From contig JAEULJ010000007.1 in assembly GCA_016793865.1 (NCBI GenBank), positions 496,001 to 560,000 on the forward strand: 64,000 bases of DNA, written 5' to 3'. The stretch is from Altererythrobacter sp. GTDB taxonomy: Bacteria; Pseudomonadota; Alphaproteobacteria; Sphingomonadales; Sphingomonadaceae. Numbering within the stretch: the first letter of the stretch is position 1; every line of letters starts with the position of its first letter. Of this stretch, positions 22,206 through 60,857 are shown in pieces. The position numbers and the translations under genes are program-made. Under the pieces are notes generated by a model that was not told the DNA's origin, ran no database searches, and was given only the letters and a program-made list of their open reading frames with translations.

Positions 22206-24647
22206 TCACCCTTCGATGCGGCCGAAATCGGCAACGCGGTGGACCGCATCGCGGAAGCGGGCGAGCAGGCCAAGCCGTGCGGCGCGCTTGTCCCGATTGG
22301 GATCGTTCACGGTCACCTCCTCGAAGAATCGGTCGATGGGCCCGCGCAAGGTAGCGAGCGCGGACATGGCGCCGGCGAAATCCTCCGCCTCCACGGCGCG
22401 GACCGCAGCGGGCTCGGCCGAATCGAGCGCCGCGATCAGCGCTTCTTCCGCATCGTCGGGGGTGTAGGAAAGCGATTTGTTCTTCTTTTCTTCCAACTGC
22501 GCCTTTATCACCGCGGCCATGTCGGGATCGTCGACCATGCTGAGCGGGTCTTCCTCGCCCGTGCGCGCGATGCCCTGGGTGTTTAAGGCCCCTTCCCTTG
22601 AGGGAATGGGTTGGGGATGGGTTTGCGGCGGCGGCGGCGTGGCGCCCCCCACCCCCACCCCCGGCCCCTCCCCCTCGGGGAGGGGAGTGGAAGCAGTGGG
22701 AGAAGCCCATCCCTCTTTCTTGAGGATGTTGGCCGCGCGCTTGTAGGCGGCGAGAAGGTCAGCACCCTCGGCGGTTTCGATATAGTGCTGCAACGCCTTC
22801 ACCCTTGCCAGCAGGCGGACCAGATCGTCCTCCCCGCCTAAAGCGAACACCGCATCGATGAGATCGTGCCTGACCCCCGCCTCGCGCTGCTGGACCTTGA
22901 GGCGGTCAGCAATGAACTCACGGATGTCCGCCATGAAAACCCTAGCGAATTGCTGTTGCAGTTCCGCCCTCACAGTTTGAGTTTCGAGGTGTGGCCTCTC
23001 ATCTTCGATGCCCTGTTCGCGAAATCCATTGCGGGCCTCTGCAAGCCAGATGGCAAGCTTCCCACGCAAGTTGCCCTCGATCGTAACGGCTAGAACGCCA
23101 AGTGAGGCGCGCCGGAGGGCAAAGGGGTCTTTCGATCCCGTTGGCTTGAGCCCCTTCATGAAAAACCCAGCCAACGTATCCAGCTTGTCCGCCAAACTCA
23201 CCGCCACCGTCACCGGTGCGGTGGGGACTTCGTCGCCCTGCCCCATCGGTTTGTAGTGGTCGCGGATGGCGTCGGCGACTTGAGGGTCGAGGCCCTCGGC
23301 GCGGGCGTAGTAGCCGCCCATCACACCCTGGAGCTCGGGGAACTCGCCGACCATCTCGGTGACGAGATCGGCCTTGGCGAGCCGCGCGGCCTGTTCGGCG
23401 AGGTCGGCCAACGAAGCCCCTTCCCTTGAGGGAAGGGGTTGGGGATGGGTGCTCGACGGCCGCGAGGTGGCACCCCCCACCCCCGGCGCCTTCCCCGAGG
23501 GGAGGGGAGTTTCAACGACTATCCCTTCGTCGACCAGCCAGCGGGCCAGTTTCGCCACACGCTCGACCTTGTCGGCCACGGTGCCGAGCTTTTCGTGGAA
23601 GGTGATCCGTTCCAGTTTCTTCGCGTGCTCGGCGAGCGTGGTCTTGCGGTCCTGCTCCCAGAAGAAACGCGCGTCCGAAAGCCGCGCGGCGAGCACCTTG
23701 CGGTTGCCTTCCACGATGGCCGCCCCGCCGTCGTCCGCCGCGATGTTGGCGGTGCACACGAAGGCGTTGGCGAGTTTCCCCGCGCCGTCGTTGGCGACGA
23801 AATACTTCTGGTTCACGCGGGCGGTGAGCTGGATCACCTCGGGGGGCACGTCGAGGAACGCCTCGTCGAAGCGGCCGAGCAAGGGCAGCGGCCATTCGGT
23901 CAGGCCGGCGTTCTCCACCACCAGCCCCTCGTCCTCGACCAGCGCCAGGCCTGCATCGCCGGCGGCCCTGGCCGCACCTTCGCGGATCAGCGCGGCGCGT
24001 TCCTCGTGGTCGACGATCACATGGCAGGCGCGCAGCTTCTCGGCATAATCGTGCGCCCCGCCGATGGTGACCGGGCCGGAATGGTGGAACCTGTGGCCCA
24101 GGGTCGCGAAACCGCTCGCCACGCCCGCCGCCTCGCATTCGACCAGATCTTCACCCAGAATGGCGACGATGCCGCTCAAGGGCCTGACCCAGCGCGGACT
24201 TTCGGTGCTCAGCGAGGCCTCGCCCCAGCGCATCGACTTGGGCCAGGCGAAGTCGCGGACGACCGCCGGGATGGCTTCGGCAAGCACGTCCCTGGTGGCG
24301 CGGCCCGGCTTGTCGATGATCGCGAACCAGGTCGGGCGGCCCTTCACATCGCGCAGCTGAAGCTGATCCTTCGTGACGCCATTCTTGCGGCAGAAGCCTT
24401 CCAGCGCTGCATCTGGCGCGCCCTCGGGCGGGCCCTTCGCCTCCTCGGAAACCGCCTCCGTGGCGTCGGGCAGTCCCTTCGCGATCAGGGCAAGACGGCG
24501 CGGGGTCGACCACACCGTGACGTCACCCGCGTCGATCCCGGCGGCCGCCAGCTCGCGGCGCAGCAGCTTCCCCAGCTCGGCGCGCGCGCCGGCCTGCATC
24601 CGCGCCGGGATTTCCTCGCAGCGCAGTTCGAGGAGGAAGTCGCTCAC
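22206..24647 (-). CDS. glyS: glycyl-tRNA synthetase beta subunit, with two repeat-derived insertions
   Basis: The 813-residue protein starts [14 protein letters not shown], the GlyS signature, and works with GlyQ as an alpha2beta2 enzyme. It is about 120 residues longer than the E. coli subunit (689). Two Pro/Gly-rich inserts explain much of this: residues about 379-411 and about 654-687, both encoded by copies of a palindromic repeat (23417-23512 and 22589-22687) and sharing the THPQP-L/I-PSREG peptide. The GTG at 24647 overlaps the glyQ stop as GTGA. The reading frame is intact, so the protein is presumably functional despite the insertions. Confidence 0.95.
22589..22687. repeat. palindromic repeat copy A, in frame in glyS
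   Basis: A composite of two hairpins. The first has arms CCCTTCCC and GGGAATGGG around a TTGA loop (one mismatch), followed by TTGGGGATGGGTTTG. The second has perfect 9-bp arms CCCCTCCCC and GGGGAGGGG around CTC. Between them is a CCCCCCACCCCCACCCCCGG stretch. It is read through by glyS as roughly residues 654-687. Confidence 0.85.
22921..23100. other. lower-GC segment within glyS
   Basis: Counting the three 60-base lines gives about 53-58 percent G+C against about 67 percent in a glyS line further upstream (23521-23580). It lies between the two repeat copies in the same gene. No frame change; the encoded protein still looks like GlyS. Confidence 0.6.
23417..23512. repeat. palindromic repeat copy B, in frame in glyS
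   Basis: The left hairpin is perfect: 9-bp arms CCCCTTCCC (23417-23425) and GGGAAGGGG (23430-23438) around TTGA, followed by TTGGGGATGGGTG. The right half is CACCCCCCACCCCCGG, then an imperfect stem CCTTCCCC/GGGGAGGGG. Same order as copy A. It encodes glyS residues about 379-411. Confidence 0.88.
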
Positions 24648-25546
24648 AGCACCCACTCCGGGTACTTCGCCTGCCATTCCGGCGTCATCTTGGCGGCGTA
24701 GGCCTCGCAGCTCGAACGGGCGAGGTCGCGGACGCGGGCCATGTAGCTGGCGCGTTCCTGCACGCTGATGACGCCGCGCGCCTGGAGCAGGTTGAAGACA
24801 TGGCTGGCCTCGACCGCCTGCTCATAAGCCGCGATCGGCACGTCATTGGCCAGACAATTGCGGCATTCCGCCTCCGCCTTGGCGAACAGGTCGAACAGCG
24901 CGGCCGTGTCGGCGACCTCGAAGTTCCACTTCGACATCTGGCGCTCGTTCTCGAGGAACACATCGCCGTAGGTGGTGCCCCGGCCATTGAAATCGAGATC
25001 GTAAACGTTGTCGACGCCCTGGATATACATCGCCAGCCGCTCCAGCCCGTAGGTCAGCTCGCCCGCAACAGGCTTGCAGTCGAAGCCGCCCATCTGCTGG
25101 AAATAGGTGAACTGCGTCACCTCCATCCCGTCGCACCACACTTCCCAGCCCAGGCCCCAGGCGCCCAGCGTGGGGCTTTCCCAGTCATCCTCCACGAAGC
25201 GGATATCGTGCTTGAGCGGATCGATGCCGATCACGCGCAGGCTTTCGAGATAGAGATCCTGGATGTCGGGCGGGCTCGGCTTCAGGATCACCTGGTACTG
25301 GTAGTAATGCTGGAGCCGGTTGGGGTTTTCGCCATAGCGCCCGTCGGTCGGGCGGCGGCAGGGCTGGACGAAGGCGGCGTTCCACGGCTCCGGCCCTAGC
25401 GCGCGCAAGGTGGTGGCGGTGTGGAAGGTGCCCGCGCCCATCCGCATGTCATAGGGCTGGAGGATCAGGCAGCCGCCCTTGGCGCTCCAGAAATCATGGA
25501 GCGCCAGGATCATGTCCTGGAAGCTGGAGGCCGGGTCACGCTGCAT
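24644..25546 (-). CDS. glyQ: glycyl-tRNA synthetase alpha subunit
   Basis: The 300-residue catalytic alpha subunit of the bacterial heterotetrameric GlyRS. Typical stretches: [19 protein letters not shown] near residue 8, [20 protein letters not shown] near 31, [19 protein letters not shown] near 61 and [19 protein letters not shown] near 132, all class II catalytic core. Its stop overlaps the glyS GTG by 4 bp. Full length. Confidence 0.98.
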
Positions 25547-54983: not shown

Positions 54984-57900
54984 TCAGCTATAATAGTCCC
55001 GCAGGCTGCGCACTTCAAGCTGCCCGGCCTTTACCTCGGTGATCGCGCGCGCGACCGCCAAGCAGGCTGCGGCGGTGGTGTAGTAGGGAAGCTTCTTTTC
55101 CAGCGCCCCGGCACGGATCGATTTGGAATCGAGCAGCGACTGCCACCCCTCGGTGGTGTTGAAGATCAGCGCGATCTCGCCGTCGATGATGGCATCGACG
55201 ATATGCGGGCGGCCCTCCGCCACCTTGTTCACCGGCTTCACGTCCAGCCTCTGGCCAACGAGATACCGCTGCGTCCCCCCCGTGGCGACGGCGGTGAACC
55301 CATGATCCAGGAGCGCCTTCACCGCGGGCACGATCACGGGCTTGTCGCTGTCCTTTACCGACACGAACAATGTGCCCCGCTCGGGCAGGTTCATGCCCGC
55401 GCCCAGCTGGGACTTGAGGAATGCCGCGGGAAAATCCCGATCGATTCCCATGACTTCGCCGGTACTCTTCATCTCCGGTGAGAGCACCGGATCGGCTCCG
55501 GGGAAGCGGTTGAAGGGGAACACCGCCTCCTTCACCGCCATGTGGCGGGTGGGAACCGCGAAGGGCTCGAAGGCGGACAGCGGCTCGCCCGCCATCACCC
55601 GCGCTGCGATCTTGGCGACCGGCCGCCCGATAGCCTTGGCCACGAATGGCACCGTACGGCTGGCGCGCGGATTGACCTCGATCAGATAGACGCCGTTGCC
55701 GCGATCCGCCCCGGGCCTTGCCCCCGGTTCCGTGGCCGGATCCTTGTAGGCGAACTGCACGTTCATCAGGCCCTGGACCTTCAGCGCCTTGGCGAGCGCG
55801 ACGGCCTGGCGTTCCATTTCCACGATCACCTCGTCCGGGAGGCTGTAGGGCGGCAGGGTACAGGCACTGTCGCCCGAATGAACGCCGGCCTCCTCGATAT
55901 GCTGCATCACGCCGGCGATCCGCACCTCGCCTTCCGCATCGGCGATCACGTCGACATCGCATTCGATGGCATCGCGCAGATACTGGTCCACCAGCACCGG
56001 GCTGTCGCCGCTGACGTTGACCGCGGTGGCGATGTAGTCGTCGAGCTGGGCCTCGGAATCGACGATCTCCATCGCGCGCCCCCCCAGCACATAGCTGGGG
56101 CGCAGCAGCACCGGATAACCGATGGTCCGCGCCGCCGCCGCCGCCTCGTCGCGGCTCTTGGCGATGCCGTTGGCGGGCTGGCTGAGTTCGAGCTGGCGCA
56201 CCAGCTTGGCGAAACGCTCGCGGTCCTCGGCCAGGTCGATGGCGTCCGGGCTGGTGCCCAGGATCGGGATGCCCTCACGCTCCAGCGCCGCGGCCAGCTT
56301 GAGCGGTGTCTGCCCGCCGAGCTGGACGATCACACCCACCACCTCGCCCCTGCTCATCTCGACGCGCAGGATCTCCAGCACGTCTTCCTCGGTCAGGGGC
56401 TCGAAGTAAAGCCGGTCGCTGGTGTCGTAATCGGTGCTGACGGTCTCGGGATTGCAGTTGACCATGATGGTCTCGAACCCGGCCTCGGATAGCGCGAAGC
56501 AGGCGTGGACGCAGCAATAGTCGAACTCGATTCCCTGGCCGATGCGGTTGGGCCCGCCGCCCAGGATCACGATCTTGCGCCGGTCGCTGGGGTCGGCCTC
56601 GTCCTCGGCTTCCCCGAAGCTGGGCGCCTCGTAGGTCGAATACATATAAGGCGTGATCGCCTCGAACTCGGCGGCGCAGCTATCGATGCGCTTGAACACG
56701 GGGAGAACGCCGAGCTTGTGGCGCAGCGCGCGCACCTCGCCCTCGCTGGTGGCGCCGGCCATCGCACGCAGGGCATCGTGGAGCAGGCCCGAGCGCTTGG
56801 CCTGCGTCTCGCCCAGCCCGCCCGCCACGCCGACACTGCGGACCGCCAGCGTGGCGAGCCGCTTGTCGGAAAAGCCCATCGCCTTCAATCGGCGCAGGCC
56901 ATCGGCATCGGTCGGCAGGCCCCTCTCGCCGATCGCGGTCTCCTCGGCGATGATCGCCTCGATCTGGCGCAGGAACCAGCGGTCGTAGCCGGTGAGCGCG
57001 TGGATTTCCTCCACGCCGAAGCCCTCGCGGAAGGCCTGCCCGACCTTGAGGATGCGGTCGGGCGTGCGCTGGCTGAGCGCGGCGGTGATGGCGTCCCGGC
57101 GAACGCCTTCGAGCTCGGGCACACGGTTGAAACCGTCGAGCCCGGTCTCCAGCCCGCGCAACGCCTTCTGCATCGATTCCGCGAAGGAGCGGCCGATCGC
57201 CATCACCTCGCCCACGGACTTCATCGCGGTCGAAAGCTCGGGCACCGCGCCCTTGAACTTCTCGAAGGCGAAGCGCGGGATCTTGGTGACCACATAGTCG
57301 ATGGTCGGCTCGAACGCCGCCGGGGTCGCGCCGGTGATCTCGTTGCGAAGTTCGTCCAGCGTATAGCCCACCGCCAGCTTGGCCGCGACGCGCGCGATCG
57401 GGAAGCCGGTCGCCTTGCTCGCCAGCGCGCTGGAGCGGCTGACGCGCGGGTTCATCTCGATCACGATCAGCCGCCCGGACTTCGGATCGACTGCGAACTG
57501 CACGTTCGAACCACCTGTTTCCACGCCGATTTCGCGCAGCACGGCGATGCTCGCCGAGCGCATGATCTGGTATTCCTTGTCGGTCAGCGTCAGCGCCGGG
57601 GCGACCGTGATGCTGTCCCCGGTGTGGACCCCCATCGAATCGACGTTCTCGATCGAGCAGATGATGATCGCATTGTCCTTGCGGTCGCGCACCACCTCCA
57701 TCTCGAACTCCTTCCAGCCGAGGAGAGATTCCTCGATCAGGACTTCGGTGGTGGGGGATGCGTCGAGGCCGGAGCGGACGATCGTCTCGAACTCCGCCTT
57801 GTTGTAGGCGATGCCGCCGCCGGTGCCGCCGAGCGTGAAGCTGGGGCGGATGATCGCGGGCAGCCCCGTGCGATCGAGCACCGCGAAGGCTTCCTCGACA

Positions 57901-58352
57901 GTATGCGCCACGCCGCTGCGCGCGCTTTCGAGGCCGATCCTGTCCATCGCCTCGCGGAAGCGCTGGCGATCCTCCGCCTTGTCGATGGCGTCGGCATTGG
58001 CGCCGATCATCTGCACGCCATAGTCGGCGAGCACGCCCATCCGCTCGAGATCGAGCGCGCAATTCAATGCGGTCTGCCCGCCCATCGTCGGCAGCAGCGC
58101 GTCGGGCCGCTCCTTGGCGATGATCTTGGCCACTATTTCCGGCGTGATCGGCTCCACATAAGTGGCGTCGGCCATCTCCGGATCGGTCATGATCGTGGCC
58201 GGGTTGGAGTTGACGAGGACCACACGGTAGCCCTCCTCCTTCAGCGCCTTGATCGCCTGCGTGCCCGAATAATCGAACTCGCACGCCTGCCCGATGATGA
58301 TGGGCCCGGCGCCGATGACGAGGATGGATTGGATATCGGTACGACGAGGCAT
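54984..58352 (-). CDS. carB: carbamoyl-phosphate synthase large subunit
   Basis: The 1122-residue enzyme has two ATP-grasp synthetase halves: [20 protein letters not shown] (9-28) with [15 protein letters not shown], and [20 protein letters not shown] near 589 with [14 protein letters not shown], then a C-terminal MGS-like allosteric domain. All parts are present. Its upstream leader is abnormal: the ATG is preceded by GAGCCACTGA and palindromic repeats, not by the carA-linked gene. Residues 1-31 occur a second time at 58940-59083. So the current 5' end appears to have been rebuilt after an insertion. Confidence 0.97.
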
Positions 58353-58378
58353 TCAGTGGCTCCATACCGCGGGCGCCG

Positions 58379-58475
58379 ACCCCCCACCCCCGGCCCCTCC
58401 CCAGGGGGAAGGGAGCTTGCGAGGTTTGCGCTGGAGTGTAAGCCCCTTCCCTTGAGGGAAGGGGTTGGGGATGGG
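58379..58475. repeat. palindromic repeat copy C between carB and the DUF559 gene
   Basis: Same two modules as in glyS but in the reverse order: first CCCCCCACCCCCGG with the imperfect stem CCCCTCCCC/GGGGGAAGGG, then the perfect hairpin CCCCTTCCC-TTGA-GGGAAGGGG with TTGGGGATGGG (ending about 58475), 15 bp before the DUF559 GTG. Confidence 0.85.
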
Positions 58476-58490
58476 TTTGCGACATTGGCG

Positions 58491-58838
58491 GTGAAGCGAT
58501 TGACAGGCGTAGCGCGCAGGTTGCGCGCCGACATGACCGATGCCGAGCGCCGCCTGTGGTCGCAGCTGCGCGCCAGCCAACTCAGCGGCGCCAAATTCAC
58601 GCGGCAGTTTCCGATCGGCGATCACGTGGTCGATTTCGCCTGCCGATCCCTGCGGATCGCGATCGAATGCGATGGCGGCCAGCATTCCGAGAGCACGACC
58701 GACGACGCCCGCACGCGCATGATCGAAGCCCACGGCTACCGCGTGATCCGCTTCTGGAACCACGACGTCCTGCAAAACACCGACGGCGTTCTGGCCCGCA
58801 TCGCCGGGGAAATCGCCCTCGCTCGCAACGAACCTTGA
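58491..58838 (+). CDS. DUF559 protein, Vsr/PD-(D/E)XK-like endonuclease fold
   Basis: The 115-residue protein has the DUF559 pattern: RLRADMTDAERRLWSQLRAS near residue 11, HVVDFACRSLRIAIECDGGQ near 47-66 holding the Asp and Glu-x-Asp of the nuclease-like core, and GYRVIRFWNHDVLQN near 84. DUF559 belongs to the very-short-patch-repair/restriction-endonuclease-like superfamily, which also contains homing endonucleases; catalytic activity of this copy is inferred. GTG 58491 gives the usual start; an internal ATG at 58533 is an alternative. It lies antisense to the car genes and between repeat copies C and D. Confidence 0.82.
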   Translation: MKRLTGVARRLRADMTDAERRLWSQLRASQLSGAKFTRQFPIGDHVVDFACRSLRIAIECDGGQHSESTTDDARTRMIEAHGYRVIRFWNHDVLQNTDGVLARIAGEIALARNEP

Positions 58839-58849
58839 AAGGCGCCCTC

Positions 58850-58989
58850 CCTCATGGGAGTCGAAACCGGCATAGCCCCCTCCTTGAAGGGAGGGGGTTG
58901 GGGGTGGGTTTACGACGCCCGAACCGTTGCCCCGCCCTCTCACCGCCGAACCCCCATCCCCAACCCTTCCCCACGGGGGAAGGGAGCCG
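58850..58989. repeat. palindromic repeat cluster D between the DUF559 gene and the carB fragment
   Basis: Two or three hairpin modules: CCCTCC-CTCAT-GGGAG (about 58843-58860), CCCCCTCC-TTGA-AGGGAGGGGG followed by TTGGGGGTGGGTTT (about 58874-58902), and CCCCCATCCCCAACCC with CCTTCCCC-AC-GGGGGAAGG at 58950-58986. The last module abuts the duplicated carB sequence exactly. Confidence 0.8.
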
Positions 58990-59083
58990 GCGTGCCCGAA
59001 TAATCGAACTCGCACGCCTGCCCGATGATGATCGGCCCAGCGCCAATGACGAGGATCGAGGAGATGTCAGTGCGTTTGGGCAT
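58940..59083 (-). pseudogene. carB: stranded 5' fragment of carB (31 codons of homology, 47-codon ORF)
   Basis: The first 31 codons match CarB residues 1-31 except K3 for R3 and S8 for Q8, then run into repeat sequence ([13 protein letters not shown]) and stop at TGA 58940. The 43 bp nearest the junction (GT-C side, codons about 17-31) are identical to the working carB, while the 5' half differs at many positions. Its ATG overlaps the stop of the upstream unknown gene (TAATG). This is best read as the original carB start, cut off when the DUF559 cassette inserted. Confidence 0.85.
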
Positions 59084-59658
59084 TATTCGCTCTCATCCGG
59101 GATCGCTTCGTTCCCGATGAAGCCAACTTTGAAGACCTCGCCTTTGGCGGCGACGTACATCATCGCGCTCATGAGACAGGTCACTTTGTCCCATTCAGGT
59201 CCCTCGATCGGCTTGTCGGTCATCTGTGGCTGAGCTGTTAGGCCCCACTCGCTTTCGACAAAGAAGGAGCCCCGCTCGACTCCGCAATGCCTTTCGAGCG
59301 CCTCGGCGAAAAGCTTATCGGTTGAAAAACTCGCGCGTTCTGGAAAGTCTTTGAGCAGCCCACGCTTTTCGAGCGACTTCTCTGCCTCTGCAAGCATTTG
59401 AGGCCGGTAAATCTCGCCCACGAAATCCAAATAGGCAACTTGCAAATCGGCTTTTTTGAAAGTCACTATTTCGTGATCCACTGCTTTGTGGATGCAGGCA
59501 AAATCGCTTTCAGACGCACCCGCGCTTTCATCGATGACGATTTCGATGCTTTGCAGATAATCCTCGTATTTTACCGTGAACCCATCAGCATTGAGACCGC
59601 ACTCGACCAACTTCTGCTGGATCGCCTGCTCTTGATGGATCGGTGGTTGTGGCGGCAT
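59083..59658 (-). CDS. unknown low-GC gene between carA and carB
   Basis: A 191-residue protein, soluble and acidic, with no signal peptide and no membrane helix. I do not recognise a family. Three sampled lines give 45, 48 and 55 percent G+C against roughly 65 percent nearby, and codons such as AAA, TTT and GAA are common, so it is probably of foreign origin. ATG 59658 lies 5 bp after the carA stop and its TAA overlaps the ATG of the carB fragment, so it was part of the carA-carB transcription unit before the cassette arrived. Confidence 0.7.
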
Positions 59659-59663
59659 TTCGA

Positions 59664-60857
59664 TCACCCCAACATCCCCACGAATTTCTCGAACAGATAG
59701 AAACTGTCCTGCGGGCCGGGGCTGGCTTCGGGGTGATACTGGACGCCGAAGGCGCGTTTGCCGGTGATGGCGATGCCGCAGTTGGTGCCGTCGAACAGCG
59801 AGACGTGGGTTTCCTCGACGCCCGGCGGCAGCGTGGCGTTGTCGATCGCGAAGCCGTGGTTCATGCTCGTGATCTCGAACAGGCCCTCGCTGGCGCCCCA
59901 GCTCTTGCCGACGCGCTTGACCGGGTGGTTGGCGCCGCGGTGGCCCTGGTGCATCTTGGCGGTCTTCGCCCCGGCGGCGAGGCCGAGCATCTGGTGGCCG
60001 AGGCAGATGCCGAACAGCGGCACGTCCGCCTCCAGCAGGCCCTTGATGACCGGCACCGCATATTTCCCCGTCGCCGCCGGATCGCCCGGGCCGTTGGAGA
60101 GGAACACCCCGTCGGGCTTGAGCGCCATGATCTCGTCCAGCGAGGTGCGTGCGGGCACCACGGTAACCTTGGCTCCGGCGCTGGCCAGATTGCGGAAGAT
60201 GTTGTCCTTCGCGCCGTAATCGATGGCGACGACGTGCGGCTTCCCCTGCCAGTCGGCGCGGCCATAGCCCTTGCCGAGCGTCCAGCCGCCGCCGCCCCAT
60301 TGCTCGCTCTCGGCGCGGGTGACGCGCGGCACCAGGTCCAGCCCTTCCAGCCCGCTCCACTCCTGCGCCAGCTTGCGGAGGGCCTTGAGGTCGAACTTGC
60401 CCCCGGGATCGTGAGCGATCGCCACATTGGGCGCGCCCTCCAGCCGGACCTTGCGGGTGAGCGCGCGGGTATCGACCCCGGAAAGGCCGATCTTGCCCTG
60501 CGCCCTGAGCCAGTCGCCAAACTCGCTCTCGGCACGGAAACTGGACGACGGGGTCACGTCCTCGCGCACGACACAGCCCACGGCGCCCAGTGACCGTTCC
60601 TGGCCCCGGCTCTCCACATCCTCCGCATTGGCGCCGACATTGCCGATATGCGGGAAGGTGAAGCACACCACCTGCGCGTCATAGGAGGGATCGGTCATAA
60701 CCTCCTGATAGCCGGTCATGGCGGTGTTGAAGCACAGCTCGCCCACCGCCTGGCCCTCGTGCCCGAAACCCTTGCCCCAGATCACCGTGCCGTCAGCGAA
60801 CACGAGCACGCCGGTCGAGCCGGGAGGTTGCGCGTGCGAAGAGGCGGATCGGGCCAT
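59664..60857 (-). CDS. carA: carbamoyl-phosphate synthase small subunit
   Basis: The 397-residue glutamine amidotransferase subunit supplies ammonia to CarB. N-terminal domain: LVFADGTVIWGKGFG near residue 18 and FPHIGNVGANAEDVESR near 69. Class I GATase domain: LSNGPGDP near 250, catalytic C285 in FGICLGHQMLGLA, and QYHPEASPGPQDS near 370. Complete. It is divergent from yqeY; carB follows only after the unknown gene and the DUF559 cassette. Confidence 0.97.
   Translation of the reverse strand: MARSASSHAQPPGSTGVLVFADGTVIWGKGFGHEGQAVGELCFNTAMTGYQEVMTDPSYDAQVVCFTFPHIGNVGANAEDVESRGQERSLGAVGCVVREDVTPSSSFRAESEFGDWLRAQGKIGLSGVDTRALTRKVRLEGAPNVAIAHDPGGKFDLKALRKLAQEWSGLEGLDLVPRVTRAESEQWGGGGWTLGKGYGRADWQGKPHVVAIDYGAKDNIFRNLASAGAKVTVVPARTSLDEIMALKPDGVFLSNGPGDPAATGKYAVPVIKGLLEADVPLFGICLGHQMLGLAAGAKTAKMHQGHRGANHPVKRVGKSWGASEGLFEITSMNHGFAIDNATLPPGVEETHVSLFDGTNCGIAITGKRAFGVQYHPEASPGPQDSFYLFEKFVGMLG

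Follow-up and report, generated by a model that had tools for sequence, protein, structure and literature searches.

A DUF559 gene between two carB starts points to a homing-like cassette that may restore the gene it invades

In the 64,000-nucleotide stretch of an Altererythrobacter sp. contig analysed here (the window), the 5′ end of carB is present twice with a DUF559 gene between the two copies, and this arrangement is beyond chance because relatives have the same layout. We favour, as reasonably probable for both the window and its relatives, a homing-like cassette that restores the start of its target gene. Such a cassette would comprise REP-like palindromes, duf559 antisense to the operon, further palindromes, a linker and carB nucleotides (nt) 1–38, and would invade uninterrupted carB starts that, in the carA-carB operon, are preceded by a small unrelated gene. 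The host’s own first codons would remain behind the small gene as a dead relic, the cassette’s copy of the first 12–13 codons would turn into the working start, and CarB would stay whole. We infer intronless homing: DUF559 would cut an empty carB close to nt 38 and the cassette allele would serve as template for repair of the break, with the relic as the left arm and carB after nt 38 as the right arm. In the window the left end seems to have been joined at about nt 97 instead, so that nt 39–97 would be doubled too. Read along the minus strand, the window runs carA, a 194-aa ORF, a carB 5′ fragment, G-rich palindromes, the DUF559 gene (itself on the plus strand), palindromes and carB, with the parts placed as follows:

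54984..58352, minus strand: carB, the working gene, 1122 aa (ORF)
58315..58352, minus strand: carB nt 1–38 of the working copy, a foreign-type start MPRRTDIQS... (identity to relatives, divergence of occupied alleles)
58353..58490, no strand: linker and right-hand REP-like palindromes, 58379–58421 and 58441–58483 (repeat search)
58491..58838, plus strand: DUF559 (PF04480) gene, 115 aa, GTG start assumed (Pfam E 1.2e-37; PDB 3hrl E 3.5e-27)
58874..58985, no strand: left-hand REP-like palindromes, 58874–58916 and 58950–58985 (repeat search)
58986..59083, minus strand: carB 5′ fragment, the putative former host start, cut at about nt 94–98 (repeat pairing, identity to relatives)
59083..59667, minus strand: 194-aa cargo ORF with no assigned function (ORF)
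59664..60857, minus strand: carA, 397 aa (ORF)

The repeat search paired 58255–58353 with 58986–59084 (99 nt, 85%), bearing out the earlier note’s claim that carB codons 1–31 occur twice, in the working gene and as a fragment. The two starts share 80 of 94 nt, and both the 43 bp of identity (nt 52–94) and the K3/R3 and S8/Q8 differences are as that note had described them, as is the presence between the two starts of repeats, here palindromes, and of a DUF559 gene on the opposite strand (PF04480, E 1.2e-37). One inverted palindrome pair flanking this gene, 58444–58475 and 58953–58984, is 84% complementary. The fragment stays open for 47 aa before a stop, and counted from its ATG it ends at 94–98 nt, the precise base being ambiguous. 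The ATG overlaps the stop of the upstream ORF (TAATG), which is what a former start would show. The cargo ORF, the last 191 aa of which had no match in Pfam or NCBIfam, shares bases at either end, its GTG with the carA stop and its stop with the ATG of the fragment, an arrangement expected for a gene ahead of a live carB start.

To trace the origin of the two starts, 19 relatives were compared along carB. Over codons 1–31 the fragment shares 89 of 93 nt with G029 and G040, and likewise with G162, G018 and G027; the figures are 87/93 for G039 and 77/93 for G174, a member of another genus. Codons 1–9 of the working copy are 92.6% identical (25/27 nt) to G174 and 81.5% to contig C389 of G038, as against 63.0%, 55.6% and 63.0% for the close kin G029, G039 and G040; over codons 10–33 these three stand at 97–100%, and for the remainder of carB they are still among the best matches. 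Taking codons 1–31 together, the working copy is nearer than the fragment to G174 (85 vs 77 of 93), G038 C389 (84 vs 77), G145 (76 vs 72), G230 (84 vs 81) and G159 (80 vs 79), and further than the fragment from the other 14 of the 19 relatives. G230 is a contrary point, having no DUF559 between carA and carB and yet being slightly nearer the working start. Both G174 and G038 C389 carry DUF559 65 bp upstream of the same carB start, MPRRTDIQS, which was found only in these two and the window among the starts compared. The K3+Q8 combination occurs with DUF559 nearby in G036 and G145, and also in five genomes of two other genera with no DUF559 within 1.4 kb upstream. These comparisons support a working start that is foreign-type and DUF559-linked and a fragment that is host-type. 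The note’s proposal of a donated N-terminus with the host’s own start left as the fragment is supported, and codons 1–31 group as it had predicted, the working copy with another lineage and the fragment with the host. The diagnosable foreign stretch of the working gene is nt 1–38, mainly codons 1–9; since it is this short, the crossover may have lain within the 43-bp identity, where the note placed it, but need not have done so. G174 is the nearest row of the carB tree and had hinted at a long donor tract, an idea that was dropped after sliding identity.

A replicate of the arrangement comes from G145, of another genus, where carA is followed by a different ORF (171 aa) and then by a carB fragment about 50 nt long; between this fragment and carB lies DUF559, with palindromes on both sides. 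Its relic matches two cassette-free genomes of the same genus (G208 and G258) at 37/38 and 36/38 nt, its working start matches them at 28/38 and 27/38, and its working gene over nt 39–100 at 58/62 and 59/62. As far as sequence can establish it, the window and G145 show at least two independent insertions, and in both the left-behind end appears host-like and the working end foreign, as in mobile ORFs that donate a gene end.

The product of the window’s DUF559 gene matches PF04480 with 128.6 bits (curated cut-off 20.6), and residues D48, E59, D61, G62, G63 and H65 are invariant among 24 aligned DUF559 sequences. A solved relative is PDB 3hrl (E 3.5e-27); profile positions 38–105 also weakly match PDB 3r3p, ‘Mobile intron protein’ (E 0.024), which we take to be I-Bth0305I, of the EDxHD/Vsr-like class. 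The one annotated ORF of the window cassette matched only DUF559 and MTES_1575 in Pfam, with no Y1/HUH transposase such as a REP/RAYT element would have, and no integrase in Pfam or NCBIfam such as an integrase-borne island at the 5′ end of a gene would have. Among its relatives, flanking loci were examined for the best 80 of 103 in named genomes. The 16 closest (58–78% identity) adjoin carB in 16/16 cases, all antisense to the operon, and carA too in 14, the remaining two running off their contigs; they come from the genomes of 15 records, made up of Erythrobacteraceae by name, a Sphingomonas and MAGs. The other 64 of the best 80 have neither carA nor carB within the DNA examined. Of the 57 genomes of the window’s genus in which carB was matched, five (G000, G005, G028, G036, G038) have DUF559 in the carA-carB gap, a patchy distribution. 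The carB-linked lineage thus keeps a fixed address across species, a mark of homing elements, and the expectation that other strains would have DUF559 at the same place proved correct in other genera (G174 and G145 both carry it before carB).

To find relics, the 300 nt before each DUF559 gene were scanned against 40 real carB starts and 40 shuffles (one further flank was too short). A carB-start relic scored above all 40 shuffles in 11 of the 21 scorable DUF559-carB loci, although the margin was small in G129 and ErECHK (one site) and in G209 (two sites); no relic above chance was seen in the other 10. In six of these 10, no more than about 150 bp separate the start of DUF559 from the carA end, and given this proximity both cargo and relic may have been lost there. 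In G005, G028 and Pontixanthobacter the relic ATG lies 38 nt from the palindrome, and in G162 39 nt; the distance is also 38 nt at contig C340 of G038 with the palindrome placed by eye, the script having stopped at an inner match, at 20. The window stands at 97 nt and the other five above-chance loci at 53, 50, 41, 32 and 32 nt, so that relic length is 38–39 nt in five of the 11 (one by eye) and 32–97 nt in the other six. This uneven junction counts against the homing reading, as do the 10 loci with no relic above chance. An Alteriqipengyuania relic also measures 38 nt, but its match (22) is below the highest shuffle (23); exact 38-nt relics above chance occur only in the window’s genus and Pontixanthobacter. 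By eye, the left junction is the outer edge of the palindrome each time. The ORFs preceding the relics are unlike one another, the matches among those of the window, G005, G162 and Pontixanthobacter being extensions into carA, and three loci have no ORF ending at the relic. The insertion between codons 31 and 32 that the note had proposed has to be corrected, the point most often seen in relatives being carB nt 38–39 (codon 13), and the window, with its left junction at about nt 97, is an outlier among them. A fixed site at codon 33, hinted at by the window and G033, was likewise dropped, other scraps ending between about codons 11 and 51.

Empty sites of the kind that the note had predicted do exist. 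G005 and G027 have a common cargo, 70% identical, behind which the carB of G027 is uninterrupted and the relic of G005 breaks after nt 38; by cargo identity, G028/G016 (34%) and Alteriqipengyuania/G048 (47%) are weaker occupied/empty pairs. G005/G027 and G145 vs G208 and G258 each represent the occupied and the empty state of one site, as expected of a homing element. Within the genus, six occupied rows (two from one MAG) were compared with the consensus of 52 empty rows. Over nt 1–38, occupied rows differ at 6.0 sites and empty rows at 1.23 (permutation p 7e-5); over nt 39–100 the values are 2.83 and 3.19 (p 0.75), and because the rows are related these p values are a guide only. Here the insertion has a foreign flank with a sharp edge at nt 38, again in keeping with a homing element, and the nt-38 edge on both relics and working copies is the trace that would be left if a break at this point were repaired with the cassette allele as template. 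The note’s idea of a cassette carrying its own carB start and restoring its target gene thus keeps the foreign start, the host fragment and the empty sites; its insertion codon does not stand.

DUF559 is one of many occupants of this junction. The first 84 aa of the working carB were matched in 57 of 60 genus genomes, and over these 57 the carA-carB gap ranges from 2 to 1793 bp. Four genomes have 2–3 bp there, and one more, with 97 bp, lacks any ORF of 45 aa; in most of the others a single small ORF fills the gap, overlapping the carA stop with its start and the carB ATG with its stop. Gap ORFs fall into 35 clusters over 63 loci, spurious ORFs included, and the junction has the look of a slot through which small genes are exchanged. 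The carA-carB region is also variable in Neisseria. A carB fragment precedes the working carB with no DUF559 between them in G033, where the insert is gene Y; in G162 one stands before a PIN-domain gene on the opposite strand, followed by the working carB, and others precede non-DUF559 inserts in G223, G087, G309, G430 and G180. Across the family, 9 of 397 genomes, the window’s included, have two carB-start matches at E 1e-6, those of G129 and G354 on separate contigs. In G162, the DUF559 cassette is followed by a lipoprotein-like ORF (L127:1673–2236) whose first residues, MPKRSDIYCVLV, resemble a carB start, and which has possibly grown from a carB-start scrap. Just upstream of the working carB, five genomes from other genera (L100, L105, L103, L104, L102) have, in varying degree, a motif like TGCAATCAATGTATGCAATG.

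A junction that takes so many modules might have DUF559 as a passenger. Incoming carA-cargo-carB DNA could enter by recombination in carB at one end and by homology-free joining at the other, which would leave a 5′ scrap of carB and make DUF559 idle cargo. We consider such passive, one-sided recombination rather unlikely as the account of the carB loci, and it stays a serious rival because carB-start duplications occur with other cargo too: the 2–1793 bp gaps of the 57 genus genomes hold many unrelated ORFs fitted by start and stop overlaps, scraps with variable ends stand before gene Y (G033), the PIN-domain gene (G162) and other inserts, and the same mechanism has been proposed for the T6SS arrays of V. 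cholerae (PMC5361080). What it does not predict is the fixed address of one nuclease lineage (16/16), the repeated 38–39 nt relics after unlike cargo or the nt-38 edge of divergence, and the left junction, by eye, at the palindrome’s outer edge each time also speaks against it. The note had held that a plain tandem copy arising without DUF559 would count against its reading; duplications without DUF559 do exist (G033, G223, G430 and others), but inserted genes are present and they are not plain tandem copies. In the window itself, tandem duplication of the carB start with later divergence would account for the same 94 nt in two copies, but the divergent working codons 1–9 fit a foreign DUF559-linked allele (25/27 nt, G174); with the divergent start foreign-type and the fragment host-type, we regard this explanation as extremely improbable and have rejected it.

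An old, single insertion with vertical descent, frequent loss and later exchange of cargo between carA and the relic, the window being a local rearrangement, we judge to be improbable, if less so than tandem duplication. The 16 closest carB-linked DUF559 genes do share one orientation, some DUF559 sister pairs match the carA and carB trees, and monophyly of the genus’s DUF559 is not rejected when L143 is included (p 0.22). It is rejected when L143 is left out (p 1.7e-4), and we withdrew this test as proof of transfer because it hinged on that omission. The trees conflict in parts, and as to horizontal spread the AU tests point in both directions. The carA and carB data reject one DUF559 grouping (AU p 1.1e-6 and 3.4e-4), the DUF559 data do not reject the carA/carB grouping (AU p 0.33), and the carB data do not reject the G174-G162 pair of the DUF559 tree (p 0.35). 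Against a single insertion, the relics of the window and G145 are near-perfect to cassette-free kin and their working starts are not, and G005 sits behind cargo that G027 has with an uninterrupted carB.

Palindromes of the cassette type were also seen outside carB. Two cassette-type REP pairs lie at 22588–22688 and 23416–23510 of the window, read through in frame inside the open frame 22206–24677, which is presumably glyS-like; strict copies of the cassette palindrome number only three in its own genome. An inverted repeat scoring at least 15 flanks 23 of 33 DUF559 loci (L001–L004, L055–L083; shuffle maximum 14, five shuffles per locus), and by eye the repeat type follows the address. Among 60 genus genomes, at least three REP-like motifs were counted in 12/29 with a strong DUF559 vs 1/31 others (p 3.6e-4), a count for which the reversed-pattern control was also positive in several genomes (29 in G039, 8 in G021). 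Repeated flanks, mostly palindromic, are likewise present at DUF559 loci of other bacterial groups (L154, L155, L161, L163, L171, L181, L185, L198, L206, L210). A direct-repeat screen listed 67 DUF559 loci, 65 of them with flanks long enough; 14 non-carB loci score at least 18, mostly with palindromic repeats, the L169 direct repeat being left unclassified and that of L187 by eye resembling a second DUF559 start. No further duplicated gene end was recognised among the 65; the cross-locus control of this screen includes carB pairs, which contaminate it (maximum 59, 95th percentile 14). The same anatomy had been considered for the lpd and pnt DUF559 loci and was rejected for want of a clear gene-start relic (best 11/18 nt, counted by eye), which also weighs against the homing reading. 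It is possible, though doubtful, that palindrome-bounded DUF559 genes form a large homing-element family of bacterial chromosomes with one address per lineage, in which the carB lineage would survive by carrying recoded, cleavage-resistant first 38 nt and each invasion would swap the enzyme’s N-terminus.

The nearest analogue of the carB cassette is the fungal mitochondrial mORF, which carries a foreign C-terminus of its target: Allomyces atp6 and Glomus atp6, atp9, cox2 and nad3 (PMC3630166). In both, a nuclease ORF comes with a foreign gene end that takes over, and the native end, left behind, matches host kin where the inserted end does not. mORFs act at the C-terminus, encode LAGLIDADG or GIY-YIG proteins, reside in an organelle and have been shown to yield hybrid transcripts (PMC3630166); the carB cassette is N-terminal, carries DUF559 on the opposite strand between palindromes in a bacterial chromosome, and is known from sequence evidence only. 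In T-even phages, free-standing homing endonucleases (seg, mob) with demonstrated activity in intronless homing resemble it in having an intergenic nuclease gene at a fixed place and co-conversion tracts around the site, but they cleave at sites hundreds or thousands of bp away from their gene, and the account given of them mentions no spare gene end (PMC2988022). The mobile intron protein of the weak 3r3p match (E 0.024) differs by its name from the free-standing DUF559 gene of the cassette. REP/REPIN elements with RAYT transposases (PMC3116915, PMC2817692) likewise have a gene between inverted palindromes, and the window holds more copies of the palindrome pair; the nuclease here is DUF559, however, and the genome has only three strict palindrome copies. 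In the T6SS modular arrays of V. cholerae, ascribed to homology-facilitated illegitimate recombination with reference to transformable bacteria, a new module also displaces an old gene end that is left behind, but in the account given no nuclease is implied, there is no common junction and the ends are 3′, not 5′ (PMC5361080). A literature search by titles and abstracts found neither this carB/DUF559 arrangement nor a bacterial counterpart of mORFs. Our best reading is that the carB cassette may be the bacterial, N-terminal counterpart of the fungal mitochondrial mobile ORFs. Fungal mitochondria are known to harbour elements that replace the end of an invaded gene; a counterpart on a bacterial chromosome, in a gene of basic biosynthesis, would, if true, give DUF559, a domain of unknown function, a directly assayable function, and the chain of cut, copy and donated start would be testable with one enzyme and one short target.
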